Positions 4,920 to 34,234 of a stretch of 64,000 nt of DNA are shown here, in pieces. Source of the DNA: Bifidobacterium asteroides (GTDB taxonomy: Bacteria; Actinomycetota; Actinomycetes; Actinomycetales; Bifidobacteriaceae); NCBI RefSeq assembly GCF_019469425.1, contig NZ_CP048272.1, positions 496,001 through 560,000 of the forward strand. Direction: 5' to 3'. The number at the start of each line of letters is the position of its first letter. The first letter of the stretch is position 1. Under the pieces are notes generated by a model. It ran no database searches, was not told the origin of the DNA, and saw nothing but the letters and a program-made list of their open reading frames with translations. Both the position numbers and the translations under genes were made by a program.

Positions 4920-4952
4920 CACATGACTCTATCGGGATTTGGGGGTTTCGTA

Positions 4953-7835
4953 TTGAAGCGATTGCAAGAACGGAACAATAGGGGATCACTGCACGTGAAC
5001 CGTTCGATTATCGCTGTTCTGGTGACCCTTCTGGCGGTGCTGGCCATGGTTGTTCCGCTTGGGCTGAGTGCTTTGTCGGCCGGTCAGGCGAATGCCGTCG
5101 ACGGGCAGGACGGGACGGCCAGCAGGAAGCCGCTGCTTTACAAGATGCTGGCTTACAACCAAAGGATTGATTCCAACATTGATGAGCTGCGCATGGACTT
5201 CATCCTGCGCGTGAAGCACAACGAGTTCGACCCTTCCTGCGCCAATGCTACCGGCGGCATCGACACCACGGGCTCCTGTAATCTATCTTTCGTGTATCAG
5301 TTCTATAACGGCGGATACAGTCCGAATTATTACCGTCGAGTAAAGTATTTGAACACTATAGTCTCAGATTCATCCTCAGATCAGCCCTGGTCTGGGGCCT
5401 ATAATTGGGCCAAGAATCAGGATCAGTTCTTCACTGTCCATAAGATTATAAACTCCGGTCTGTATGACTATTTGACCATATCCATTGAGGGCGATATGAA
5501 CCTTCCGGATGGTGGCGGCTCGTCAGACTATAAAACAGGCGGTGTCGACCAGTCTTTGAACGTCTTCGCGGTCGTTGGTCAACAGCAGGATGCACTGTCT
5601 TGTACCGGTAGCGGTAGTTTGTGGGGCTGGGGTAGTAGCGACTGTGACAATTTTAACCCTGACACGATGATCAACGCGCCGGATCGAACATCTAATATCA
5701 CTGCAGCTTTGATGGCGGAGGGCAGGGGTTTCAAGAAGTATATGGAAAACTGCCTGGGCAGTGGAGCTGATCTTCAGTGCAGCGGGCCGTGGTCTTGGGT
5801 TGGCTGGGATCAGCACCCAATGCTTTATAGTGGGGGTCAGTCGAATTGGGGCATGGTGACTGATTATGGTTTTCCTGCTGATAACACCAATAGCCCCAGT
5901 ATCAGTGGCACTGCTCCGGGAACAGCCCCGTCCCGGTCTTTCTTCGTGTACTGGCTGAATGTTCGTGGCGGCTCTGATGTATGTTCGCAGACGAATTCGT
6001 ATTATTACCAGTGGGTGGCTTTGAAGGATGGCCAGTGGGTGCCTGTTGATGAGCTGACTCCTGAGCCGGTTCTGGTGACGGGCCAGCAGCCGTCTCCCAA
6101 TACGCGCACTGATTCGGGGGGCGCAGATTCCTCGGCTGATCCGTATTCGGCTTTTAATTTGCCTAAGCAGCGGAATAATCCGAATGAGTTGTTTGCGACT
6201 GATAGGGATGGCAATCCTATGCCTGCGCAGAATCCGGATGGTTCCATCAATTTCAGGGAGGCTAAGGAGAAGCAGGGTCTTGATGGTTATTTCAAGATGG
6301 TCACGTGGCCTGTGACCACGAACCGGGATGGGAGCGCTTGCACGGTCAGTCCTGAAGTGTACAACCCCATGAATGTAGGTCTTGTGGGGATAGATGACAA
6401 CATGCCCGCTTCGACGAAGGACAGGAACCTGACTGCTGGGCAGACCATCAATACGGCTTTTTATAAGTATGATGTGGCTCGTCCTAAGGATCCGACGATC
6501 ACGAAGATCGAGAATGATGCGAACAGTCCTTTGGATGCTTCGGGGAGCGTGTATACCAACAGGCTTGATCCGGTGGTCAGTGGTGAGTGCACGCCTTCCA
6601 GGGATGAGGCGCATCCCAACATGGTTGTTCTTTATGGGGAGGATCCTGCCAATCCCATCGGCGGCGGGCAGGGCCGGAATGATGACGCCTTGGCCAGAAG
6701 CGCGGACACGTGGGGGTTCAGGCTGGGCGAGGCCGAGTGCAAGGTCGATGCTGGCAGCAGGCAGGGGGGCTCCTGGCAGGTACAGGACGACAATAAGCAG
6801 TATCCGGCGCCGGATCCCGGCAACAGGTTCAGCGGGTACCGGCGGTATCATGCCTGGGTGGTTGAATCCACCTCCGGGTTCGGTTTGACTTCTTTCTTCT
6901 CGAACATAGGAACGGCTTATTTCGTTTCCATCGAGAATGCTCCGGATGCGGGCAAGCTCGCGGTCGCTGTGCCTCATACGGTGAACGGGAGCCTGCCTGC
7001 AGGTTCGGTCGTCGTGTTCAGGGGTGAGGCGTCGCCTGTGTATACGGCCTGGTCTTCGGGGGGGCTGGGGATGGCTGGTTCGAAGATGGCTGTTTCGATG
7101 AAGCAGGGGGCCGTTTCGGGCTGGACTCCTCTGGTGACCGCCCCGGCCGATACCTTCCAGAGGGATGCGGCGGCCGGCACTGCTTCTTCTGTCTCGGATC
7201 CAGCGTCGGGTTCTGTGCTCAGGGTCGTCAAGACGGCGGCTTCCGCCTGGTCCTGGACGCTGAGCATCCCTGTTGACAGGTTCACCGGCTACAACGGCAG
7301 CGACGAGACGCAGACGTACGCCTTCCGGGTTAAGATGATCAACCCGATGAACGTCAGCTCGGAGCCGGCTTCGATCGAGCGGAAGGTGGACATGACCCCT
7401 ACCACGCTGACCGTTGATCGCCATGACGTCTTCCAGGTGGCGGGCAGGGCCTATAAGTATGTGGACGGGGATGCGAAGGTTCCTGAAACCAAGGGGACCG
7501 TGGTGCGTATAACCTGGCCCGGCAATAGCAGTACGGATGTCACTGTGGGTGACCAGGGCTTGTGGCAGGCGGTTCCGCCTGAGGGCGTCAACAAGGGCGA
7601 GTTCACTGCGCAGGTGCTTTCCGATGATGCTGAGGGCGCTGACGCCCAGGGCAGGTTCCAAGGAGGAAACCAGTCAGCCGTCGTGTCGCAGACGCTGGAG
7701 TTCCGTCCTTCCAACTCGGCTTTGCCGTTGACGGGCGGGTGGCCCCTGGCCGTGTTCAGGATCCTGCTGCTGATGGCGCTTGGCCTGGTCGGCTTCGTGG
7801 CCTGCCTGAGGAACAAGCAGGAAAACCGCCACTGA
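4953..7835 (+). CDS. LPXTG-anchored surface protein, paralog 1 of 3
   Basis: A 960 aa exported wall protein of unknown ligand. Residues 1-48 form a long signal peptide (NRSIIAVLVTLLAVLAMVV, likely cut after QANA). LPLTG is at 924-928, followed by a hydrophobic helix and RNKQENRH. The body has conserved blocks separated by variable ones (about 5280-5985 and 6103-6173) and several cysteines in shared positions (DPSC...GSC, LSC...DC, NC...LQC), suggesting disulphides. No catalytic family is recognised. The TTG at 4953 is chosen over an in-frame ATG at 4923 because it aligns with the TTG starts of both paralogs and has GGGGG seven bases upstream. Adhesin is an inference from architecture only. 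Confidence 0.85.
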   Translation: MKRLQERNNRGSLHVNRSIIAVLVTLLAVLAMVVPLGLSALSAGQANAVDGQDGTASRKPLLYKMLAYNQRIDSNIDELRMDFILRVKHNEFDPSCANATGGIDTTGSCNLSFVYQFYNGGYSPNYYRRVKYLNTIVSDSSSDQPWSGAYNWAKNQDQFFTVHKIINSGLYDYLTISIEGDMNLPDGGGSSDYKTGGVDQSLNVFAVVGQQQDALSCTGSGSLWGWGSSDCDNFNPDTMINAPDRTSNITAALMAEGRGFKKYMENCLGSGADLQCSGPWSWVGWDQHPMLYSGGQSNWGMVTDYGFPADNTNSPSISGTAPGTAPSRSFFVYWLNVRGGSDVCSQTNSYYYQWVALKDGQWVPVDELTPEPVLVTGQQPSPNTRTDSGGADSSADPYSAFNLPKQRNNPNELFATDRDGNPMPAQNPDGSINFREAKEKQGLDGYFKMVTWPVTTNRDGSACTVSPEVYNPMNVGLVGIDDNMPASTKDRNLTAGQTINTAFYKYDVARPKDPTITKIENDANSPLDASGSVYTNRLDPVVSGECTPSRDEAHPNMVVLYGEDPANPIGGGQGRNDDALARSADTWGFRLGEAECKVDAGSRQGGSWQVQDDNKQYPAPDPGNRFSGYRRYHAWVVESTSGFGLTSFFSNIGTAYFVSIENAPDAGKLAVAVPHTVNGSLPAGSVVVFRGEASPVYTAWSSGGLGMAGSKMAVSMKQGAVSGWTPLVTAPADTFQRDAAAGTASSVSDPASGSVLRVVKTAASAWSWTLSIPVDRFTGYNGSDETQTYAFRVKMINPMNVSSEPASIERKVDMTPTTLTVDRHDVFQVAGRAYKYVDGDAKVPETKGTVVRITWPGNSSTDVTVGDQGLWQAVPPEGVNKGEFTAQVLSDDAEGADAQGRFQGGNQSAVVSQTLEFRPSNSALPLTGGWPLAVFRILLLMALGLVGFVACLRNKQENRH

Positions 7836-7906: not shown

Positions 7907-7913
7907 ATACCTG

Positions 7914-7994
7914 TGCGCGAGATGGGACTCGAACCCACACGTCCGAAGACACAGGAACCTAAATCCTGCGCGGCTACCATTACGCCACTCGCGC
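7914..7994 (-). tRNA. tRNA-Leu(TAG), left copy
   Basis: On the complement, GCGCGAG pairs with CTCGCGC as acceptor stem, CAGGA/TCCTG closes the loop TTTAGGT with anticodon TAG, and a class II variable arm (TCTTCGGA) precedes the GGTTCGAGTCC T arm. It decodes CUA. CCA is not encoded. An apparently identical copy is at 14606-14686. Confidence 0.93.
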
Positions 7995-8035
7995 CTGCTG
8001 CATACCTAACCCCTGCAAAGGGCAGCTGCCAAAAG

Positions 8036-8108
8036 AGCCACTTGACAGAATCGAACTGTCGACCTTCTCATTACGAGTGAGACGCTCTGCCAACTGAGCT
8101 AAAATGGC
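8036..8108 (-). tRNA. tRNA-Thr(CGT), left copy with a U-G acceptor pair
   Basis: Complement-strand cloverleaf with anticodon loop CTCGTAA (anticodon CGT, decodes ACG), D arm TAGCTCAGTTGGCAGA and T arm AGTTCGATTCT. The 5' acceptor strand is GCCATTT against AAGTGGC, giving a U-G pair at 5:68; the right copy (14728-14800) has GCCACTT and is fully paired. The sequence upstream of its 5' end is unlike that of the right copy, and I see no promoter there. Confidence 0.88.
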
Positions 8109-8347: not shown

Positions 8348-11266
8348 TTGAAGCGTTTGCAGGGACGGGACGCTAAGGGTTCACAGCGTGTGAGTCGTTC
8401 GGTCATCGCTGTTCTGGTGACCCTTCTGGCGGTGCTGGCCATGGTTGTTCCGCTTGGGCTGAGCGCCTTGTCGGCCGGTCAGGCGAATGCCGTCGACGGG
8501 CAGGACGGGACGGCCAGCAGGAAGCCGCTGCTTTACAAGATGCTGGCTTACAACCAAAGGATTGATTCCAACCAGGATGAGCTGCGCATGGACTTCATCC
8601 TGCGCGTGAAGCACAACGAGTTCGACCCTTCCTGCGCCAATGCTACCGGCGGTATGGACACCATGGGCTCTTGTAATCTATCTTTTGTATACCCGTTTGA
8701 AGGTTCTACCAATCCGCCGCATTATCGCCGAATAAAGTATCTGAACACCATAGCTTCAAAATCATCCACTGATCCGGCCTGGATCGGAGCCTATAATTGG
8801 GCCAAGAATCAGGATCAGTACTTCACCGTCCACAAGATCATAAACTCCGGTCTATATGACTATTTGACCATTTCCATCGAGGGCGATCTGAATCTTGGGG
8901 ATACGGGTGACTCGTCAGCCCATAAAACGGGTGGTGTCGACGAGCCTCTGAACATTTACGCAATTGTAGGTCAGCAGATAGGAGCTGTGGGTTGCGGCGC
9001 TGGTACATGGAGCTGGACCCCCTCCAACGCCCTTGATGAGTGCTTCTACTTTAATCCTGATATTAATATTAAGGCGCCGGATCGAACATCCAATATCACT
9101 GCAGCTTTAACGGCTGAGGGCAAGGGTTTCAAGAAGTACATGAAAGACTGCCTGGGCAGTGGAGCTGGTCTTCAGTGCAGCGGGCCCTGGTCTTGGGTCG
9201 GCTGGGATCGGCAGCCAGATCTTTATAGTGGAGGTCAGTCGAACTGGGGCATGGTGACTGATTATGGTTTCCCTGCCTATAATGGTTTTTATGATGGTTA
9301 CCGTGTAAATGGCACTGCTCCGGGAACAGCACCGTCCCGGTCATTCTTCGTGTACTGGCTGAATGTTCGCGGCAGCACCTACTACAACCCCGACGGCATA
9401 TGTTCTGAGACGAATTCGTATTATTACCAGTGGGTGGCTTTGAAGGATGGCCAGTGGGTGCCTGTTGATGAGCTGACTCCTGAGCCGGTCCTGGTGACGG
9501 GCCAGCAGCCGTCTCCCAATACGCTCACTGATTCGGTGAGCGGGACGCCCCTAGCCTATTCGTCTTCGGCTTTCAATGTGAGTCCGAGGGATCCGAGGTA
9601 TCTCAATAATCCGAATGAGTTGTTTGCGACTGATAGGGATGGCAATCCTATGCCTGCGCAGAATCCGGATGGTTCCATCAATTTCAGGGAGGCTAAGGAG
9701 AAGCAGGGTCTTGATGGTTATTTCAAGATGGTCACGTGGCCTGTGACCACGAACCGGGATGGGAGCGCTTGCACGGTCAGTCCTGAAGTGTACAACCCCA
9801 TGAGTGTCGGTCTTGTGGGGATAGATGACAACATGTCCGCTTCGACGAAGGACAGGAACCTGACTGCAGGGCAGACCATCAATACGGCTTTTTATAAGTA
9901 TGATGTGGCCCGTCCTAAGGATCCGACGATCACGAAGATCGAGAATGATGCGAACAGTCCTTTGGATGCTTCGGGGAGCGTGTATACCAGCAGGCTTGCT
10001 CCGGTGGTCAGTGGTGAGTGCACGCCTTCCAGGGATGAGGCGCATCCCAACATGGTTGTTCTTTATGGGGAGGATCCTGCCAATCCCATCGGCGGCGGGC
10101 AGGGCCGGAATGATGACGCCTTGGCCAGAAGCGCGGACACGTGGGGGTTCAGGCTGGGCGAGGCCGAGTGCAAGGTCGATGCTGGCAGCAGGCAGGGGGG
10201 CTCCTGGCAGGTACAGGACGACAATAAGCAGTATCCGGCGCCGGATCCCGGCAACAGGTTCAGCGGGTACCGGCGGTATCATGCCTGGGTGGTTGAATCC
10301 ACCTCCGGGTTCGGTTTGACTTCTTTCTTCTCGAACATAGGAACGGCTTATTTCGTTTCCATCGAGAATGCTCCGGATGCGGGCAAGCTCGCGGTCGCTG
10401 TGCCTCATACGGTGAACGGGAGCCTGCCTGCAGGTTCGGTCGTCGTGTTCAGGGGTGAGGCGTCGCCTGTGTATACGGCCTGGTCTTCGGGGGGGCTGGG
10501 GATGGCTGGTTCGAAGATGGCTGTTTCGATGAAGCAGGGGGCCGCTTCGGGCTGGACCCCTCTGGTGACCGCCCCGGCCGATACCTTCCAGAGGGATGCG
10601 GCGGCCGGCACTGCTTCTTCTGTCTCGGATCCAGCGTCGGGTTCTGTGCTCAGGGTCGTCAAGACGGCGGCTTCCGCCTGGTCCTGGACGCTGAGCATCC
10701 CTGTTGACAGGTTCACCGGCTACAACGGCAGCGACGAGACGCAGACGTACGCCTTCCGGGTTAAGATGATCAACCCGATGAACGTCAGCTCGGAGCCGGC
10801 TTCGATCGAGCGGAAGGTGGACATGACCCCTACCACGCTGACCGTTGATCGCCATGACGTCTTCCAGGTGGCGGGCAGGGCCTATAAGTATGTGGACGGG
10901 GATGCGAAGGTTCCTGAAACCAAGGGGACCGTGGTGCGTATAACCTGGCCCGGCAATAGCAGTACGGATGTCACTGTGGGTGACCAGGGCTTGTGGCAGG
11001 CGGTTCCGCCTGAGGGCGTCAACAAGGGCGGGTTCACGGCGCAGGTGCTTTCCGATGACGCTGAGGGCGCTGACGCCCAGGGCAGGTTCCAAGGAGGAAA
11101 CCAGTCAGCCGTCGTGTCGCAGACGCTGGAGTTCCGTCCTTCCAACTCGGCCCTGCCGCTGACCGGCGGGTGGCCCCTGGCCGTGTTCAGGATCCTGCTG
11201 CTGATGGCGCTTGGCCTGGTCGGCTTCGTGGCCTGCCTGAGGAACAAGCAGGAAAACCGCCACTGA
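8348..11266 (+). CDS. LPXTG-anchored surface protein, paralog 2 of 3
   Basis: A 972 aa protein built like paralog 1: signal peptide ending QANA, conserved N-terminal block (KPLLYKMLAYNQRID), variable block (about 8670-9400), short second variable block (about 9535-9600) and a long near-identical C-terminal half ending in LPLTG (936-940), a membrane helix and RNKQENRH. The TTG start has GGGGGG seven bases upstream (8335-8340). The reading frame is intact, with poly-G tracts of 6 (10195-10200) and 7 (10489-10495) bases. Its extreme 3' end (CTGCCGCTGACC) differs from copies 1 and 3. Ligand and function are unknown. Confidence 0.85.
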   Translation: MKRLQGRDAKGSQRVSRSVIAVLVTLLAVLAMVVPLGLSALSAGQANAVDGQDGTASRKPLLYKMLAYNQRIDSNQDELRMDFILRVKHNEFDPSCANATGGMDTMGSCNLSFVYPFEGSTNPPHYRRIKYLNTIASKSSTDPAWIGAYNWAKNQDQYFTVHKIINSGLYDYLTISIEGDLNLGDTGDSSAHKTGGVDEPLNIYAIVGQQIGAVGCGAGTWSWTPSNALDECFYFNPDINIKAPDRTSNITAALTAEGKGFKKYMKDCLGSGAGLQCSGPWSWVGWDRQPDLYSGGQSNWGMVTDYGFPAYNGFYDGYRVNGTAPGTAPSRSFFVYWLNVRGSTYYNPDGICSETNSYYYQWVALKDGQWVPVDELTPEPVLVTGQQPSPNTLTDSVSGTPLAYSSSAFNVSPRDPRYLNNPNELFATDRDGNPMPAQNPDGSINFREAKEKQGLDGYFKMVTWPVTTNRDGSACTVSPEVYNPMSVGLVGIDDNMSASTKDRNLTAGQTINTAFYKYDVARPKDPTITKIENDANSPLDASGSVYTSRLAPVVSGECTPSRDEAHPNMVVLYGEDPANPIGGGQGRNDDALARSADTWGFRLGEAECKVDAGSRQGGSWQVQDDNKQYPAPDPGNRFSGYRRYHAWVVESTSGFGLTSFFSNIGTAYFVSIENAPDAGKLAVAVPHTVNGSLPAGSVVVFRGEASPVYTAWSSGGLGMAGSKMAVSMKQGAASGWTPLVTAPADTFQRDAAAGTASSVSDPASGSVLRVVKTAASAWSWTLSIPVDRFTGYNGSDETQTYAFRVKMINPMNVSSEPASIERKVDMTPTTLTVDRHDVFQVAGRAYKYVDGDAKVPETKGTVVRITWPGNSSTDVTVGDQGLWQAVPPEGVNKGGFTAQVLSDDAEGADAQGRFQGGNQSAVVSQTLEFRPSNSALPLTGGWPLAVFRILLLMALGLVGFVACLRNKQENRH

Positions 11267-11606: not shown

Positions 11607-11640
11607 AGCATGATTTCATTATGATCTGGGGGGTATTGCA

Positions 11641-14527
11641 TTGAAGCGTTTGCAGGGACGGGACGCTAAGCGTGTGAGTCGTTCGATTATCGCTGTTCTG
11701 GTGACCCTTCTGGCGGTGCTGGCCATGGTTGTTCCGCTTGGGCTGAGCGCCTTGTCGGCCGGTCAGGCGAATGCCGTCGACGGGCAGGACGGGACGGCCA
11801 GCAGGAAGCCGCTGCTCTATCGGATGTTGGGCTACAACAATAAGATTGATTCCTATCAGGATGAGCTGCGCATGGACTTCATCCTGCGCGTGAAGCACAA
11901 CGAGTTCGACCCTTCCTGCGCCAATGCTACCGGCGGTGCCGACACTAGAGGCAATTGTAATTTGGCCTTTGTCTATCAGTACAAGGGCTCAGATAGTCCG
12001 TCATACTATCGCAGAATAAGGTATCTGAACACCATTGCTTCAGCGTCATCCTCAGATCAGCCCTGGTCTGGAGCCTATAAGTGGGCGCAGAACAGGGATG
12101 AATACTTCACTGTGCACACGATAATCAATTCTGGTTTATATGACTATTTGACCATTTCCATTGAGGGAGATCTGGCGCTTAAGAATTCTGCTGATGCGTC
12201 ATATTACCAACCTGGCGGTGCCGACGAGCCTGTGCATATCTATGCGGTTGTTGGTGAACAGAAAGGGGTGCTATCTTGCAGTCGTCCTGGTACTCCATGG
12301 AGATGGGCCACCACCAAAATCGATGATTGTAAAAATTTCGAGCCTGGCACGATGATAAATGCGCCGGACAGGGTATCCAATGTGACCTCAGCTCTAACGG
12401 CAAATGGCAAGAACTTCACCCTGTATATGCAAGAATGCCTGGGCAAGGGCGCTGGTCTTCAGTGCAGCGGCCCGTATTCTTGGGTAGGCTGGGATAACAA
12501 CCCAAATCTCTACGGAGGCAATCAGTCGAACTGGGGCATGGTCACTGATTATGGTTTTCCTGCTTATGCTGGTCTCAGCATCAGTGGCACTGCTCCGGGA
12601 ACAGCCCCGTCCCGGTCTTTCTTCGTGTATTGGCTGAATGTGCGCGGCAGCACCTACTACAACCCCGACGGGATATGTTCTGAGACGAATTCGTATTATT
12701 ACCAGTGGGTGGCTTTGAAGGATGGCCAGTGGGTGCCTGTTGATGAGCTGACTCCTGAGCCGGTTCTGGTGACGGGCCAGCAGCCGTCTCCCAATACGGT
12801 TACCACCACGGTTGCCAAGGCAGCCCAAGTCAGTAAGTATTCCGCTTTCAACTTGCCTCAACAATCTGATAATCCGAATGAGTTGTTTGCGACTGATAGG
12901 GATGGCAATCCTATGCCTGCGCAGAAGGCTGATGGGGGGATTGATTTCAGGGAGGCTAAGGAGAAGCAGGGTCTTGATGGTTATTTCAAGATGGTCACGT
13001 GGCCTGTGACCACGAACCGGGATGGGAGCGCTTGCACGGTCAGTCCTGAAGTGTACAACCCCATGAGCAAAGGTCTTGTGGGGATAGATGACAACATGAA
13101 CAGCTCGGATATAGAACGAAATATTTCTGCGGGCTGGACCATTAATACGGCTTTTTATAAGTATGATGTGCCTCGTCCTAAGGATCCGACGATCACGAAG
13201 ATCGAGAATGATGCGAACAGTCCTTTGGATGCTTCGGGGAGCGTGTATACCAGCAGGCTTGCTCCGGTGGTCAGTGGTGAGTGCACGCCTTCCAGGGATG
13301 AGGCGCATCCCAACATGGTTGTTCTTTATGGGGAGGATCCTGCCAATCCCATCGGCGGCGGGCAGGGCCGGAATGATGACGCCTTGGCCAGAAGCGCGGA
13401 CACGTGGGGGTTCAGGCTGGGCGAGGCCGAGTGCAAGGTCGATGCTGGCAGCAGGCAGGGGGCTCCTGGCAGGTACAGGACGACAATAAGCAGTATCCGG
13501 CGCCGGATCCCGGCAACAGGTTCAGCGGGTACCGGCGGTATCATGCCTGGGTGGTTGAATCCACCTCCGGGTTCGGTTTGACTTCTTTCTTCTCGAATGT
13601 CGGCACGGCTTATTTCGTTTCCATCGAGAATGCTCCGGATGCGGGCAAGCTCGCGGTCGCTGTGCCTCATACGGTGAACGGGAGCCTGCCTGCAGGTTCG
13701 GTCGTCGTGTTCAGGGGTGAGGCGTCGCCTGTGTATACGGCCTGGTCTTCGGGGGGCTGGGGATGGCTGGTTCGAAGATGGCTGTTTCGATGAAGCAGGG
13801 GGCCGCTTCGGGCTGGACCCCTCTGGTGACCGCCCCGGCCGATACCTTCCAGAGGGATGCGGCGGCCGGCACTGCTTCTTCTGTCTCGGATCCAGCGTCG
13901 GGTTCTGTGCTCAGGGTCGTCAAGACGGCGGCTTCCGCCTGGTCCTGGACGCTGAGCATCCCTGTTGACAGGTTCACCGGCTACAACGGCAGCGACGAGA
14001 CGCAGACGTACGCCTTCCGGGTTAAGATGATCAACCCGATGAACGTCAGCTCGGAGCCGGCTTCGATCGAGCGGAAGGTGGACATGACCCCTACCACGCT
14101 GACCGTTGATCGCCATGACGTCTTCCAGGTGGCGGGCAGGGCCTATAAGTATGTGGACGGGGATGCGAAGGTTCCTGAAACCAAGGGGACCGTGGTGCGT
14201 ATAACCTGGCCCGGCAATAGCAGTACGGATGTCACTGTGGGTGACCAGGGCTTGTGGCAGGCGGTTCCGCCTGAGGGCGTCAACAAGGGCGGGTTCACGG
14301 CGCAGGTGCTTTCCGATGATGCTGAGGGCGCTGACGCCCAGGGCAGGTTCCAAGGAGGAAACCAGTCAGCCGTCGTGTCGCAGACGCTGGAGTTCCGTCC
14401 TTCCAACTCGGCTTTGCCGTTGACGGGCGGGTGGCCCCTGGCCGTGTTCAGGATCCTGCTGCTGATGGCGCTTGGCCTGGTCGGCTTCGTGGCCTGCCTG
14501 AGGAACAAGCAGGAAAACCGCCACTGA
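11641..14527 (+). pseudogene. LPXTG surface protein, paralog 3 of 3, two frameshifts
   Basis: Same architecture as paralogs 1 and 2, but read from TTG 11641 the frame stops at 13581 after 646 aa, losing the LPLTG anchor. The first break is a G5 tract (13458-13462) where copies 1 and 2 have G6; the second is a G6 tract (13751-13756) where they have G7. Between the tracts translation continues in a second frame (...QDDNKQYPAPDPG...VYTAWSSGG), then a third frame (MAGSKMAVSMKQGA) to the LPLTG end at 14527. All other conserved codons are intact, so the change is recent, switchable, or a base-call error. Its variable block (about 11940-12580) differs from both neighbours. Confidence 0.85.
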
Positions 14528-14598: not shown

Positions 14599-14605
14599 AT
14601 ACCTG

Positions 14606-14686
14606 TGCGCGAGATGGGACTCGAACCCACACGTCCGAAGACACAGGAACCTAAATCCTGCGCGGCTACCATTACGCCACTCGCGC
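14606..14686 (-). tRNA. tRNA-Leu(TAG), right copy
   Basis: Same sequence as the copy at 7914-7994: anticodon loop TTTAGGT, class II variable arm. It lies 41 bases beyond the tRNA-Thr on the complement strand, so the two are probably one transcript. Confidence 0.93.
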
Positions 14687-14727
14687 CTGCTGCATACCTA
14701 ACCCCTGCAAAGGGCAGCTGCCAAAAG

Positions 14728-14800
14728 AGCCACTTGACAGAATCGAACTGTCGACCTTCTCATTACGAGTGAGACGCTCTGCCAACTGAGCTAAAGTGGC
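14728..14800 (-). tRNA. tRNA-Thr(CGT), right copy
   Basis: Anticodon CGT with a fully paired acceptor stem (GCCACTT/AAGTGGC). On the complement upstream there is a possible -10 box TATGAT (about 14848-14853), which the left copy lacks. This is the better candidate for the functional, original gene. Confidence 0.93.
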
Positions 14801-27726: not shown

Positions 27727-28554
27727 ATGAAGGGAATTGCCTTGCCGAAATGCCTCACCCGCCGGGTCCTGCTTTGTCTGATTGCGGCCTTGGCCTGTTT
27801 AGGACTTACCGCTTTCGATATGACGCCGGCGGCAGAGGCGGCGACGGTTAACCCGACCCTGACGGTGCAACTCAAGAGAGGGCATTCAGGTCAAGGAGGC
27901 CAGAATGACATCCTGCCAAGTGCTCCTGTATCTGCTGGAGCAGGGTACGTCTTTCGTGCCCTAAGACTGGATGCAGGTATTCTCAAGAGCCGGGTGGAGG
28001 CACTTGACCATAATCCAGGCGCTGATAAGGCACAAGCGGCCATCAGCAACGAGGTGGCAGCCAATCCAGATGCTTTCAAAGACAAGTCGCAACCCGCTGA
28101 ATATTACGGTGTCTCTGATCAAGAAGGCACTATAACCAATGCGTCAGAGGCGAAATCGCAAGGTGTTTGGCTTACTGGGGCCAATCTCGATTCAGACGCA
28201 TCCAGCCTGACCGGAGGCAGCCCGGCTGTTTTTGATGGCGACTACTTCCACGCTTCGTACTGGTTGGTCACTATGGTAGCCACACCTAAGAATGCAAAGG
28301 TAAAAGCCGACCCTGTAGTTGTACAGTTGCCGCTCTACCGCGAGCAGGGGGAGGTCCATCCGCTTTATGATGTGACTATAAGCCCCAAGCTTGTGGACGT
28401 GCCTCAGGTCGTGCCAGTGGCGCGATCTGGGCCAGGCAAACTGGCAGCTACCGGTGCATCCATGGTGGCGCCTGGCATTTTGCTTATGATTCTGGCCATG
28501 ATGGGCATCTACTTGGGGGTAGTTGCACGATCCTGGAACCGGGATGAACGCTAG
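27727..28554 (+). CDS. Minor/basal pilin with LAATG sorting signal
   Basis: A 275 aa exported protein: signal peptide to about residue 38 (CLIAALACLGL...AAEA), a core starting NPTLTVQLKRG, and a C-terminal LAATG (239-243) followed by a long helix and RSWNRDER. Its place between the shaft pilin and the class C sortase makes it the accessory or basal pilin. LAXTG is the motif typical of class E housekeeping sortases in high-GC Gram-positives, so a wall-anchoring role is plausible but inferred. No adhesion domain is recognised. AAGGGAAGG precedes the ATG. Confidence 0.8.
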   Translation: MKGIALPKCLTRRVLLCLIAALACLGLTAFDMTPAAEAATVNPTLTVQLKRGHSGQGGQNDILPSAPVSAGAGYVFRALRLDAGILKSRVEALDHNPGADKAQAAISNEVAANPDAFKDKSQPAEYYGVSDQEGTITNASEAKSQGVWLTGANLDSDASSLTGGSPAVFDGDYFHASYWLVTMVATPKNAKVKADPVVVQLPLYREQGEVHPLYDVTISPKLVDVPQVVPVARSGPGKLAATGASMVAPGILLMILAMMGIYLGVVARSWNRDER

Positions 28555-28623
28555 GTATTCTCATGGCGATGTCGGCATGTTGCCACCAAATGGCATCGTA
28601 GGCATCTGTGAGGATGCGTAAAG

Positions 28624-28656
28624 ACCGGCGGTATCATACAGGTACCGCCGGTTTTT
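28624..28656 (+). terminator. Terminator between minor pilin and sortase genes
   Basis: ACCGGCGGTA (28624-28633) pairs perfectly with TACCGCCGGT (28643-28652), followed by five T. A strong terminator just before srtC implies partial read-through or a separate promoter for the sortase. Confidence 0.88.
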
Positions 28657-28713
28657 ATATGTCAAAAAACTGGCAACTGGACTATAGGAAGCGCAGTACG
28701 AGGAAGGCTATAG

Positions 28714-30198
28714 ATGGACCAGAACACTGACTCGGCTACTATCAGCCCAGTAAATGCCACCGGCAACGGTGATGTAGCATATGAGTCCATTCCGACAGTA
28801 TCGTCATCATTAGAAAAGCCTGCTGTGCAAGCGGATATGCCGCCTGCCTATGCTCCAAGTTCCGATGTACCCCCTTCCTATCCACCTTCGGCAACACCTG
28901 AGGATCGCAGAGCTGTAGAGTCGGATAATTCAGATGCAGTAGCGGCTCCAGCGCCTGTTCCAGGCAAAGCTACCACGTCGGCTCCTATAATTATTGTTTC
29001 AGGAAATCATGCTCAGGACGCAGGCCAGACAACTGCGGCTGCGTCCAAACAAGCTAAGAACAATGGCAAGGCCAGCAAGTCGGGGCGAGGGTTCGGCCTC
29101 CTGGAGACCTTGGCTTTCCTGATTGGTCTGGCAATCTTCCTCTATCCGTTGCTGGCAGCTTACGTGAACTATTCCAAGGATTCCGCCGCAGTCGACAACT
29201 ACGATCAGATCGTGGATGCACTCTCGCCTGCACAGCGCAAAGCCATGTGGCGCGATGCCAAGAAGTACGACGAGGAATTAGGCAAGCCTACGCTGAGGGA
29301 CCCCTTCAAATACAAGGAAGTCAAGGAACCACTGGGTCGCTACTACAAGATCCTCAATGTGGACGGCAAGGGCATGATGGCCTATGTGGAGATCCCCAAA
29401 ATCAATGTCAAGCTGCCCGTGCGCCATGGAACAAGTGATGCGGTGCTCAAGGACGGCACAGGACATATTGCCACGACCCACGTGCCTACAGACAACCGAA
29501 CCATCCATGCCGTCATCACCGGGCATACCGGTGAGGTCGGGTACATGCTTTTCGACAACCTGACCCAGTTGCGCAAGGGGGATGTCTTCCAGATACGAGT
29601 GCTCAAACGGCACATGAGCTACAAGGTGGACCAGATTAAGGTCATCTTGCCTACCGATGTCAGCGCACTGCAGCCAATCCAGAATTCCAACTACGTGACC
29701 CTGCTGACCTGCTATCCCTATGGCGTCAACTCCCACCGACTGATCGTGCGGGGGCATTATATCGGTGATGATGTACCCCCCACTCAACCTGAGGGGGCGC
29801 CCATCTACATGGTCTGGGTGCTCCTTGCCCTGTTTGCGGCCAGCCTTGTGGGCTGGTACCTGCTCTCGCGCCGCCGGCGCAGCTGCCGTCAAGACCTGGA
29901 GCAGATGGAGCATCTGGTGTCTCGGGCCACAGGATCCGGAACCGTGGGGGAGCCACTGGCCACGATCATGGTCAGCCATGAGCAGGAGACCCGAGCCGAA
30001 GCCACCCGTCGTCGCCGGTTGATCAAAACACGGCGGATCTGCAGCGCACTCATGTGGCTGCTGGCTCTGCTCTGTCTGTTCTTCGCCTGGGGTTCGGTCG
30101 GCATGATGATGCGGATCGGCTTCCTGCCTGTATTCGACCTTGGCTATCACTGGTTCGACACCCACCTGCTGTACTTCTTCGGCATCGCCAAATTCTAG
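28714..30198 (+). CDS. Class C (pilus-polymerising) sortase
   Basis: Membrane transpeptidase that links the shaft pilin Lys to the LPLTG Thr. The 494 aa protein has an unusually long Pro/Ser/Ala-rich N-terminal part (1-125), a membrane helix (about 127-152), and a sortase domain with His271 (VITGHTG), Cys333 (TLLTCYPYG) and Arg342 (HRLIVRG). Two or more C-terminal helices follow (YMVWVLLALFAASLVGWYLL; LMWLLALLCLFFAWGSVGM). GAGGAAGG precedes the ATG. The first about 370 bases are less GC-rich than the rest. It closes the pilus locus. Confidence 0.93.
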   Translation: MDQNTDSATISPVNATGNGDVAYESIPTVSSSLEKPAVQADMPPAYAPSSDVPPSYPPSATPEDRRAVESDNSDAVAAPAPVPGKATTSAPIIIVSGNHAQDAGQTTAAASKQAKNNGKASKSGRGFGLLETLAFLIGLAIFLYPLLAAYVNYSKDSAAVDNYDQIVDALSPAQRKAMWRDAKKYDEELGKPTLRDPFKYKEVKEPLGRYYKILNVDGKGMMAYVEIPKINVKLPVRHGTSDAVLKDGTGHIATTHVPTDNRTIHAVITGHTGEVGYMLFDNLTQLRKGDVFQIRVLKRHMSYKVDQIKVILPTDVSALQPIQNSNYVTLLTCYPYGVNSHRLIVRGHYIGDDVPPTQPEGAPIYMVWVLLALFAASLVGWYLLSRRRRSCRQDLEQMEHLVSRATGSGTVGEPLATIMVSHEQETRAEATRRRRLIKTRRICSALMWLLALLCLFFAWGSVGMMMRIGFLPVFDLGYHWFDTHLLYFFGIAKF

Positions 30199-30325
30199 CT
30201 GGTGCATGGGGAAGCATGTTCGACCACAGGTATCAGTTCTGTCCGGGTCCGGCTCTTCCCCGGCTCTAGAATGGAGCGAGCATGGCCCGGCAGACTGCCG
30301 GGCTGCATCATGGAAGGTGTGGACC

Positions 30326-31174
30326 ATGGCAGCAGTCCCTGACGTTCTTTTGTCTGACGGCAACCGCATTCCGCAGGTGGGCTTGGGCGTGCTTAGAATC
30401 GACGATGATCAGACCGCTGGGGCGGTGCGCTCTGCCTTGGAATTGGGTTATCGCCACATCGACACCGCGGCGGGCTACCGCAATGAAGGCGGGGTGGGCC
30501 GTGGTCTCAGGGCTTTCGGCTGTCAGAGTGGCCCTGAGCGTGCTCGCCTGTGGCTGACCACCAAACTGCGTGACTCCGAACAGGGCTACGACAGTGCTCT
30601 TCGGGCATTCGACCGCCAGCTGGCCCTGCTGGGCACTGACTATGTCGATATGTATATGATCCACTGGCCCACCCCCTTTGATTGGCGGGCCGACCAGGTC
30701 TGGAGCGCATTCCATCGGCTGCGTGATGAGAGGCGAGTGCGGACTCTGGGGGTCTGCAACTTTCTGCCTGAGCATCTGGAAAGGCTGCACCGGGAGACGG
30801 GGGAATACCCTGCCGTGGATCAGATCGAACTGCATCCCAGCTGGCAGCAGCGCACAGTGACGGCTTTCTGCAAGGAACACGGCATCGCCGTCCAGGCATA
30901 CTCGCCATTGGCGCGCGGCGCAGACCTGACAGTCGGCGGCGGAAGACTGGAGAAAATCGCCCAGGCCCACGGGGTTACGCCGGCCCAGGTGGTACTCCGC
31001 TGGCACATCGAGAACGGAACCATCATCATCCCCAAGTCCGTCCACAGGAAAAGGCAGGCGGAGAACTTGAACCTGTTCGGTTTCAGCCTGACCTTTGAGG
31101 AGCATGCCTCCATCGATGCCATGGACACTCCGGTGCGTGCAGGACACGACCCAATGACTTACGCCTACGCCTGA
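30326..31174 (+). CDS. Aldo/keto reductase, 2,5-diketogluconate reductase type
   Basis: A 282 aa NADPH-dependent reductase. The tetrad Asp46 and Tyr51 (HIDTAAGYRNE), Lys80 (LTTKL) and His113 (MIHWP) is complete, and the C-terminal IIIPKSVHRKRQAENL binds the NADP phosphate in this family. ATG 30326 (MAAVPDVLLSDG) follows GGAAGGTG; the 62 residues of an upstream frame are not family-like. Substrate unknown. It stands between the pilus locus and the nuclease gene, 54 bases before the latter. Confidence 0.92.
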   Translation: MAAVPDVLLSDGNRIPQVGLGVLRIDDDQTAGAVRSALELGYRHIDTAAGYRNEGGVGRGLRAFGCQSGPERARLWLTTKLRDSEQGYDSALRAFDRQLALLGTDYVDMYMIHWPTPFDWRADQVWSAFHRLRDERRVRTLGVCNFLPEHLERLHRETGEYPAVDQIELHPSWQQRTVTAFCKEHGIAVQAYSPLARGADLTVGGGRLEKIAQAHGVTPAQVVLRWHIENGTIIIPKSVHRKRQAENLNLFGFSLTFEEHASIDAMDTPVRAGHDPMTYAYA

Positions 31175-31228
31175 GCGCTATGATGGAGATTTCATGCATG
31201 CAGCCGGCATAGGAGGTATTAGCGGCAG

Positions 31229-32026
31229 ATGACCGATTCGAGACGCAGAAGACATCGATATCGGAGCCGCGGCCGGTACGGTTCGACATTGAGGAATCCC
31301 GTCCCGGCCCGCTTTCGTCGCGAATCGCTCACGGAACGTGTGTTGATCCTTCTGGTGGTGGCTGTGGTCTTGGGCATCACTATCGGCCTGATATTGCCAA
31401 GGGTCAATGGTGGAGTCGGACGGTTGACCGGCCGATATACGGCAACCGGCGATGCGGCCCAGACCCTGCAGGGTTTGACAGTGGACGATCATGCCCGACC
31501 GGGCCGCCAGTACCGGCGCGAGGCTTTCGGCTTCAAGGAGACCGATGAGGACGGCAACGGCTGCAATGTGCGAGAGGATGTGCTGACTCGCGATCTGACT
31601 GATCTGCGCACCACCACCCCCGGCGGTTGCAAGGTGGCCAGTGGCCGTCTGCAGGACCCCTACACTGGGCGGACCATTGAATTTATCAGAGGCCCTAAGA
31701 CTAGCTCGGCTGTGCAGATCGACCACGTGGTCGCCCTGGAGAATGCCTGGCGGTCAGGAGCCAGCAAATGGGACACGGCCCGCCGTTACCGTTTTGGCAA
31801 CGACCCCTACAATCTCCTTGCCGTGGACGGCCCGGCCAACCAGGCCAAGGGGAGTGCTTCGGCCGACTACTGGCTGCCCGAGAACAAGGACTATCAGTGC
31901 TCCTATGTAGCCCGTCAGATAGCAGTCAAGGACAAGTACTCCCTGAGCGTCACCAGATCAGAAAAGCAGGCCATGCTGGCAGTTCTGCATACCTGCCCGG
32001 GCCAGCCCCTTCCGCAGGATCGCTGA
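31229..32026 (+). CDS. Membrane-anchored HNH/DUF1524-type nuclease
   Basis: A 265 aa protein: a basic N-terminus (RRRRHRYRSRGR), one membrane helix at about 38-57 (LILLVVAVVLGITIGLILP), and an outside domain with the DUF1524/HNH pattern IDHVVALENAWRSGA followed by NDPYNLLAVDGPANQAKG and DYWLPENK. Family knowledge: this domain cuts DNA with a metal ion, as in GmrSD and secreted actinobacterial nucleases. Topology suggests an extracellular nuclease, for example for nucleotide scavenging; that is inference. Two cysteine pairs could form disulphides outside. GGAGGT lies 12 bases before the ATG. Confidence 0.82.
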   Translation: MTDSRRRRHRYRSRGRYGSTLRNPVPARFRRESLTERVLILLVVAVVLGITIGLILPRVNGGVGRLTGRYTATGDAAQTLQGLTVDDHARPGRQYRREAFGFKETDEDGNGCNVREDVLTRDLTDLRTTTPGGCKVASGRLQDPYTGRTIEFIRGPKTSSAVQIDHVVALENAWRSGASKWDTARRYRFGNDPYNLLAVDGPANQAKGSASADYWLPENKDYQCSYVARQIAVKDKYSLSVTRSEKQAMLAVLHTCPGQPLPQDR

Positions 32027-32127: not shown

Positions 32128-32139
32128 CCCCCCCCCCCC
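32128..32139 (+). repeat. Poly-C tract (C12) next to the GH43 promoter
   Basis: Twelve consecutive C bases end four bases before the TTGATC -35 box at 32144. It is the longest mononucleotide run I noticed in the window and could vary in length by slippage. Confidence 0.9.
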
Positions 32140-32203: not shown

Positions 32204-32266
32204 CGCATGGATTCCTGAATTTCTCAGGTTCTATGCCCGCAGCCATCGGCAACAGGGAGGTTGGCC

Positions 32267-34234
32267 ATGAACGGCAATCGTGGTTCGCATATGCCAGGGG
32301 AAGGGCATCACATAGGGGGCCATATGCTGAAAAGCCGCAAATCGGCCATTCTGCTTGTCGCCCTGGCTGTGATTATGGGTTTGTTATTCGTGGCGCCAAA
32401 GACGGTCGCCGCTCAAGAAGCGGGGCAAAAATCTCATTCTGCAGGCGGAAGCGGGCAAATCGTCAATGACCGTTTCTGGAATGACGCCGACGGCAATCCG
32501 ATGTATATGCAAGGCGGAGGAATCTTCGATTTCCCGGATCCGGCCACGGGGAGGGTCTCTCACTTTTGGTATGGTGTTCACTTTTCACAGGCGGAAACTT
32601 ACCGTCATGACCCCACCCATGCGCTCACCGGCAATGACTTCATTTCAGTGGATGTCTACAAATCCGAGAATCTGTCCGACTGGCGCTATCAAGGCGTGGC
32701 TTTGGACAGAGCACAGGCCGATGCCTTCTCCGGTGATTTCGGTGGCCGCCGTGCGGGTTGGGTGTGCAGGACGGGGGTTGCCTATATCCCCGAGCTGCAA
32801 ACCTATGCCATGCTCATCCAGCATGAGATGCCTACTGATGCCGCTGGTCGCAATTTCGACAAAAAGGTGTTGATCGCTACGGCCCATTCACCTGCTGGCC
32901 CGTTCAAAGCCCAGAGGCGTATCGACATGCGCGATTACGGACTGGGCACCAGCAATACCGGGGATCAGAGCGTCTTCCAGGATGAGGACGGCACAGGTTA
33001 TCTGATCTATTCCTATGGCCGTGGCCGCGGCAGTGTCTGGGCAGCCAGAATAGGCGCCAGAAACGGCCGGGTGGATTTGCTGGAGCCTACCAAGCTCTAC
33101 CAGGGTTTTGGGCGTGAAGGCAATGCGCTTTTCAAGCACGCTGGCCGGTATTATCTTGCTGGCTCCGATCTGTTCGGGTGGGATGCTTCCCGAATTCATT
33201 TCCAGGTTGCAGATCACCTTTTCGGCCCGTATCAGCCCGTCAATCAGACGGTGATCATGGATGGCAGCCGAGCAGATTTCGGCCATATCACCCAGACCGG
33301 TTTTTACTACACCTTGCGTGGCAGCAGAGCGGAGACCGTCATCCACTGTGGCGACCGATGGGCTGACTTCGCAGGCAACGGACTTGGCTACAACCAGTGG
33401 AATCCGCTGAGCTTCGATGATGTCGGCACGCCCCGCTTCAATTCCATGAGCCAGTGGAGGCTGGATGCGGATACCGGCCTTTGGTCGGTTGGCGAGGCCA
33501 ATGACTACGTGCTCAATGGGTCCTTCGAAGCGGACAGGATTTCGGTAGGCGAGCACGGGTATCGGGATAAGGATGGCCAGGTGATTGGCGATATCGCCGG
33601 ATGGCGGCGTGTCAATCCGGATGCTGTGGCCAACGTAGCCGATGCCTATGGGCGAGTGGGCGACTTCGACCTGCGGTTCGCTCCCGGGCGATCCCGCGAC
33701 GCCTCCATCGTCCAGGATCTTAATGCACCGGGACATGTTCCCCTGCACGCGGGCCGCTACCTTCTGAAACTCTCCTATATGAATCCCAAAGGCATGGATC
33801 GGGCCAGGATCGCAATCGAATCCGGTGGGAGAACCTCTGAAATCGACCTGGCTGACTCTACTGGCACAGGCTGGAGGCAGGCCTCCTTGCCGGTCGAACT
33901 GGTTGGCGGCCAGACCAGGATCGCTGTCGAGGCTTCCGGCAGTTCGGGCCAGACCCTGCATGTGGACGACGTGTCCCTGACAGATGCGCCTGACAAGGGG
34001 GCTGAAAGCAATGGTGAAATCAATCAGGGCGCAAATGTGCTTCCGGCGGTCCATGCAGGAGGAGGGGCCGTCTCCGTTCGTCTTGGCGTCGAGAGCGCGG
34101 TTTCATCCCATGCATTGGCTGCCGGGGGCATCGCCGCCGGCAGCATTCCGATCTTCGCGGCCGGCTGTGTGGCGGCGGGCGTTCTGTTGATGGCTGTAGC
34201 CGGGCGTGGGCGGCGTCTTCTTGCGCTGAATTGA
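32267..34234 (+). CDS. Cell-surface GH43 (subfamily 24-like) galactanase
   Basis: A 655 aa exported, membrane-anchored glycosidase. A signal peptide (about 20-50) leads to a five-bladed GH43 region with YMQGGGIFDFPD, HFWYGVHF, VFQDEDGTGYLIYS, LFKHAGRYYLAGSDLFGW and GDRWADFAGNGLGYNQWNPLSF. The order resembles GH43_24 exo-beta-1,3-galactanases of type II arabinogalactan. A carbohydrate-binding-like module (VLNGSFEAD..., about 420-570) follows, then a C-terminal helix (IPIFAAGCVAAGVLLMAV) and RGRRLLALN, without LPXTG. ATG 32267 follows GGGAGG. Subfamily and substrate are inferred. Confidence 0.82.
   Translation: MNGNRGSHMPGEGHHIGGHMLKSRKSAILLVALAVIMGLLFVAPKTVAAQEAGQKSHSAGGSGQIVNDRFWNDADGNPMYMQGGGIFDFPDPATGRVSHFWYGVHFSQAETYRHDPTHALTGNDFISVDVYKSENLSDWRYQGVALDRAQADAFSGDFGGRRAGWVCRTGVAYIPELQTYAMLIQHEMPTDAAGRNFDKKVLIATAHSPAGPFKAQRRIDMRDYGLGTSNTGDQSVFQDEDGTGYLIYSYGRGRGSVWAARIGARNGRVDLLEPTKLYQGFGREGNALFKHAGRYYLAGSDLFGWDASRIHFQVADHLFGPYQPVNQTVIMDGSRADFGHITQTGFYYTLRGSRAETVIHCGDRWADFAGNGLGYNQWNPLSFDDVGTPRFNSMSQWRLDADTGLWSVGEANDYVLNGSFEADRISVGEHGYRDKDGQVIGDIAGWRRVNPDAVANVADAYGRVGDFDLRFAPGRSRDASIVQDLNAPGHVPLHAGRYLLKLSYMNPKGMDRARIAIESGGRTSEIDLADSTGTGWRQASLPVELVGGQTRIAVEASGSSGQTLHVDDVSLTDAPDKGAESNGEINQGANVLPAVHAGGGAVSVRLGVESAVSSHALAAGGIAAGSIPIFAAGCVAAGVLLMAVAGRGRRLLALN

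Follow-up and report, generated by a model that had tools for sequence, protein, structure and literature searches.

The two G residues missing from the third of three tandem surface-protein genes in Bifidobacterium asteroides are best read as consensus errors in the assembly, a reading to which we assign a probability of roughly 0.55. It is favored over genuine recent inactivation of the copy, which is possible, and inactivation is in turn favored over poly-G phase variation, which is improbable. A preliminary description of the same DNA had offered phase variation, decay, and base-call error side by side; the last of these is preferred here, and a mechanism based on repeat context has been added to it. 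The shortened runs are probably not a real feature of the gene, and the recombining surface array in which they lie is more interesting than the losses themselves.

Three tandem surface-protein genes and their family

The window (i.e., the whole 64,000-nucleotide stretch that was analyzed, positions 496001 to 560000 of a single-contig genome of 2.23 Mb) contains three tandem forward-strand genes encoding proteins of ∼970 amino acids (aa). Based on the list of open reading frames (ORFs) and on tblastn, copy 1 (4923 to 7835) and copy 2 (8348 to 11266) are intact LPLTG surface-protein genes of 970 aa from an ATG and 972 aa from a TTG, respectively; the true start of copy 1 may be a conserved TTG at 4953. 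Both proteins end in LPLTG followed by a hydrophobic stretch and a basic tail, the C-terminal layout of a sortase-anchored protein. Copy 3 also encodes this anchor, yet out of frame. On the reverse strand behind copy 3, a tRNA-Leu(tag) and tRNA-Thr(cgt) pair (14605 to 14800) corresponds to the 3′ border that the locus usually has in relatives, and a second such pair, within a duplicated unit, lies behind copy 1 (7913 to 8108, reverse strand). Since one pair is present in the scanned stretch of each of 11 relatives with the full 3′ border visible, the two pairs of the window point to a segmental duplication in the array.

Named domains above threshold were found in neither Pfam nor NCBIfam for the array proteins. 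Pfam gave a subthreshold Big_13 match, as well as a subthreshold PEP-CTERM match for the last piece of copy 3, while NCBIfam gave no match close to the cutoff. A profile search of PDB sequences returned two weak matches only, with the biofilm-associated surface protein 7dm0 matched weakly at residues 860 to 909 (E value of 5e-4). By searching genome contigs, relatives of the window were retrieved from bifidobacteria at 10 loci, including B. asteroides, B. mellis, B. mizhiense, B. apousia, B. choladohabitans, and Bifidobacterium sp. These species are bee-gut bacteria. For B. asteroides, this habitat is given in PMC4449606, which also describes LPxTG genes with RCC1 repeats in honeybee bifidobacteria. 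Those genes are likewise tandem, variable in number, of the sortase type, and from the same bacterial group; unlike them, the window genes have no RCC1 match in Pfam and appear to form a family of their own. Among the papers listed in literature searches for this array, PMC4449606 included, none named the family.

Two single-G losses divide copy 3 into three frames

The lengths and coordinates given in the preliminary description were reproduced from the sequence and from an alignment of the copies. At the first site, copies 1 and 2 carry G6 (6764 to 6769 and 10195 to 10200) and copy 3 carries G5 (13458 to 13462, forward strand). At the second site, copies 1 and 2 carry G7 (7058 to 7064 and 10489 to 10495) and copy 3 carries G6 (13751 to 13756, forward strand). 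Each run in copy 3 is one G short, and the frame shifts at each; copy 3 is thus spread over three forward reading frames that are otherwise open. The first frame (11641 to 13581) comprises the gene head, with ∼605 native and ∼40 out-of-frame residues (646 aa in total). The second (13404 to 13793) is open from run 1 to run 2, and the third (13763 to 14527) holds the C-terminal part with an undamaged LPLTG sorting signal. By tblastn, the corresponding pieces span 11626 to 13461, 13407 to 13763, and 13751 to 14524.

The ORF starting at 11641 does lose the LPLTG motif and does encode 646 aa, as had been claimed; the idea that a secreted 646-aa form is a functional product found no support. Also borne out was the statement that copy 3 shows no further disabling change, the remainder of the gene being intact, as was the point that two losses in the same direction exceed a single switch, the net frame being unrestored. 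The runs affected are the two longest of the tail, in which a T5 and two G5 runs are unaltered.

A recently homogenized tail surrounds both runs

The C-terminal ∼1.3 kb of the three genes is ∼99% identical. Copies 1 and 2 align without gaps over 1,289 bp, and copies 2 and 3 differ by exactly the two gaps in question. From 13174 to 14319 (forward strand), copy 3 equals copy 2 except for these gaps and four clustered substitutions at 13598 to 13604 (forward strand). The four letters specific to copy 3 were found together in relatives' copies (e.g., the first copies of G018, G007, and G019), which identifies this stretch as genuine copy-3 DNA rather than an assembly shadow of copy 2. In the 464 kb of the source genome (G000) searched for G/C runs and repeats, two repeat families only were found at a length of at least 300 bp and an identity of at least 94%, namely, the array tail and one 792-bp pair, which has no gaps. 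The nearest sites distinguishing copy 3 from copy 2 are 285 and 136 bases from run 1 and 147 and 564 bases from run 2, distances at which single 150-base reads barely separate the two copies. Copy 1 can be told from copy 3 at nearer sites (13262 and 13806). Both changes affect homopolymers and are limited to a single instance of a near-identical repeat, as is expected of a repeat-confined error.

Phylogenetic trees were built from 44 rows (41 copies from relatives and the three from the window). In the tail tree, the window copies are united in a single clade (100/100), with path lengths of ∼0.007 to 0.008. In the head tree, copy 3 clusters with 14 middle copies from other species (100/100), and copies 1 and 2 pair with each other (100/100). 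This combination of a short-branched tail clade with separate head classes indicates recent homogenization of the tail in the lineage of the window. The run differences, if real, would then be younger than the homogenization, unless a copy since lost supplied them. The copy-3 head is under constraint (dN/dS of 0.37 against copy 2 and 0.35 against copy 1), so copy 3 either still functions or did so until very recently.

Short G/C runs are stable outside copy 3

The nearest relative found was a sister strain, G025. From 207,865 bases of this strain, 114,095 were aligned to the source genome in 13 segments after reverse-strand, short, and <92%-identity pieces were dropped; the aligned bases contained 2,347 mismatches, or ∼2% divergence with the pieces below 92% left out. 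Among unsubstituted coding G/C runs of 5 to 7, where coding denotes a position inside a mechanical ORF of at least 100 aa, length was kept in 157 of 157, with 21 further coding runs set aside because they carried a substitution. Across all positions, there was one short-run change (a noncoding G5/G6) and one long-tract change (C12/C15). The looser left-edge rule used in the coding/noncoding count misses the noncoding G5/G6 change, and neither rule yields a coding change. As for the array itself, what was recovered from G025 is limited to the final 201 bases of the tail.

Screening for frameshifts with 159 G018 coding queries (214 kb aligned) flagged both copy-3 sites and six other positions of the source genome. 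Five of the six have no G/C run of at least 5 within 60 bases on either side. The sixth, at 460894, has a G5 at a distance of 8 bases; read in all frames, the gene around it is diverged and shows an additional gap of 13 residues. Of the other five, the position at 311471, likewise read in all frames, appears to stem from a query with a shadow frame fused to it; judged from match coordinates only, 498537 and 516127 reflect leading query parts in another frame, and 378472 and 378770 reflect short, weak pieces. In-frame stops occurred in the best match of 17/159 queries, with all stops in the first fifth in 13 cases and near the end in 2; the remaining 2 have internal stops, one in the fused query just mentioned and the other in a strongly diverged gene. 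The reverse screen, using 160 queries from the source genome against G018, returned 11 rows with frameshifts and 12 with stops. Taken together, the run comparison and the frameshift screens indicate that single-base shifts in G/C runs are rare in this assembly outside copy 3; DNA beyond the repeat is largely clean, with one doubtful case near a G5. The gene around 460894 (G000 459.9 to 461.2 kb, L052) resembles a helix-turn-helix regulator by eye, and against G018 it has, besides that gap of 13 residues, a change of frame.

How a consensus error could be confined to one copy

The mechanism we favor combines what is observed (the repeat, the distances to the distinguishing sites, and the stable runs elsewhere) with a sequencing and polishing route that we infer for the source genome. 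Recent homogenization of the tails would have left the short reads of copy 3 barely separable from those of copy 2 at either run. A long-read error in one copy of the draft would then attract few corrective reads, since the error-free copies align better, and homopolymer deletions could thereby survive polishing in copy 3, which would in truth be an ordinary intact, anchored surface protein. Such behavior has been described by Wick and Holt (PMC8812927): reads are drawn to whichever repeat instance is free of error, and a homopolymer error in another instance stays uncorrected. The case in PMC8812927 and copy 3 share single-base homopolymer losses in one repeat instance, with the other instances clean. 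They differ in that the other runs of the copy-3 tail are unaffected and in that copy 3 is known from the assembled sequence alone.

Several of the results above are consistent with this mechanism, which fits the pattern described in PMC8812927: the losses affect the two longest tail runs, the 464 kb hold just one comparable repeat family besides the tail, the sites separating copy 3 from copy 2 are far from both runs, and all 157 comparable coding runs agree with the sister strain. In addition, frameshifts are absent from all 41 full-length array copies found in relatives, each being one uninterrupted tblastn match, contig-end pieces aside.

Other observations weigh against an error. The genome retains runs of up to C20, and its count per base of runs of 5 to 7 is not below that of G018. 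Copies 1 and 2 are gap-free within the same tail, the sites distinguishing copy 3 from copy 1 are nearer than those for copy 2, and repeats would fare no worse than the rest of the genome had the assembly relied solely on accurate long reads. The rRNA operons, moreover, have no private indel in the 23S gene or in the part of the 16S gene compared (its last part), with gaps in the spacer only. These operons are a weak control for repeat accuracy, as differences at 66/4,544 positions make reads easier to place. The two operons (G000 28356 to 31423 and 186086 to 189157) differ at these 66 of 4,544 aligned positions, and the operon pair is identical in each of five other genomes, with one pair compared per genome and the third copies in G013 and G014 left out (the third copy of G013 scores lower).

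Recent inactivation as the principal alternative

Alternatively, copy 3 may have lost one G from each run by replication slippage, leaving a young pseudogene or a gene for a truncated, unanchored protein, with redundancy to copies 1 and 2 having relaxed selection on it. Decay, as raised in the preliminary description, is a possible explanation that we consider less probable than assembly error; it would have to be very recent. All that follows the first lesion is a second single-base loss. Slippage would also account for the loss of bases from the longest runs of the tail. A match to NucS is present in the genome, and a search for the MutS_V domain gave no match in it (the same search was positive in 11/14 control genomes). 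According to PMC8228993, NucS leaves indels uncorrected in the actinobacteria reviewed there; together with the missing MutS_V match, this suggests that slippage at G6 or G7 would escape mismatch repair. Broken members of the family also occur elsewhere. The fourth array copy of G010 (L100) has a stop inside its anchor motif, the one such case among the 41 copies from relatives, and a distal paralogue in G025 (L114, ∼3402) shows a 2-base frame change (two extra bases) relative to the source genome. It is the disabled family members and the apparent gap in mismatch repair that keep inactivation a serious, if minority, candidate.

Against it stands the need for two independent slips within 1,146 bp that otherwise show no unclustered change relative to copy 2, in a genome whose short G/C runs are stable against a sister strain at ∼2% divergence. 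The absence of frameshifts from all 41 full-length copies of relatives counts against it as well. The neutral rate of change at G6 to G7 is hardly constrained by this comparison, which includes one comparable noncoding G6 and no noncoding G7. Should the losses be real, they would mean that one member of a recombining surface array can fall silent very quickly.

Phase variation and the long tracts of the genome

Switching of copy 3 by poly-G slippage between an anchored form and a truncated or secreted form is improbable, and the phase variation proposed in the preliminary description fares poorly: the tracts are short, of background length, seldom present in homologues, and changed by two losses in the same direction. 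The proposal is a natural one for a surface gene with G runs, as bifidobacterial pilus genes use G-tract slippage (PMC9187656). In the Bifidobacterium breve UCC2003 genes bbr_0113 and bbr_1889 described there, as in copy 3, a surface gene carries a coding G run and the number of Gs sets the frame. The tracts shown in PMC9187656 are, however, G9 to G12, with one tract per UCC2003 pilus gene, whereas the window copies have G5 to G7 and copy 3 has two runs. Furthermore, unlike the UCC2003 case, the window array has no conserved tract and is not a pilus operon.

Within the 464 kb searched, G/C runs number 741 (length 5), 113 (length 6), 12 (length 7), and 3 (length 8), beyond which stands a distinct set of 14 tracts with lengths of 9 to 20, the expected appearance of contingency tracts; the G5 to G7 runs of the array fall on the background curve. 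At the homologous sites in relatives, runs of at least 5 occur in 8/41 copies (site 1) and 2/41 copies (site 2), with a maximum of G6, and the other copies have interrupted runs or different codons, so the tract is not conserved. Run lengths are equal between copies 1 and 2, and two same-direction losses would need two reversals. The copy-3 runs lack all three features of a contingency gene, i.e., a tract of at least 9 (the lengths in the Bifidobacterium cases shown in PMC9187656), retention of the tract in homologues, and a switch by a single change. This in-genome yardstick, with the 9-to-20 group set against a background of 5 to 7, distinguishes an attractive phase-variation account from a recognized weakness of assemblies.

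Among the long tracts, a C12 at 32128 to 32139 of the window lies upstream of a gene for a GH43-like secreted protein (32261 to 34234; Pfam Glyco_hydro_43) and corresponds to C15 in G025; it is plausibly a real phase-variable tract. Further G/C tracts of 9 to 20, several inside mechanical ORFs, occur at G000 83948, 258633, 305263, 333187, 686202, and other positions, forming a set of candidate contingency loci. In the second copy of G004 (L099, 4838 to 4848), the stretch immediately preceding the conserved TTG start, possibly the ribosome-binding region, holds a G11 where G5/G6 is usual.

A mosaic array

The mosaic heads and homogenized tails would also suit a silent donor cassette, in which a broken copy 3 still feeds copies 1 and 2 by gene conversion. 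We regard this as very unlikely: copy 3 comes with a leader of its own and, as in copy 2, a G6 region that may bind the ribosome, and its head is constrained (the dN/dS values of 0.37 and 0.35) and belongs to a cross-species class. Scarcely more probable is a scheme in which the array keeps trans-species heads and spreads a homogenized anchor tail by conversion, with G-run slips toggling the anchor of single copies; if true, it would present anchored and shed versions of different heads. Programmed frameshifting and transcriptional slippage were rejected by reasoning, as G5 and G6 are short and two shifts would be required.

Anchor motifs vary across the arrays of relatives. LPFAG in place of LPLTG defines a class of copy that is last but one in the arrays seen whole. 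Among the 41 copies, 32 carry LPLTG, 8 carry LPFAG (including the single gene of G009), and that of G010 is cut at LPFA; arrays with this class are those of G018, G007, G020, G004, G019, G003, G011, and G010, with G009 having it as a single gene.
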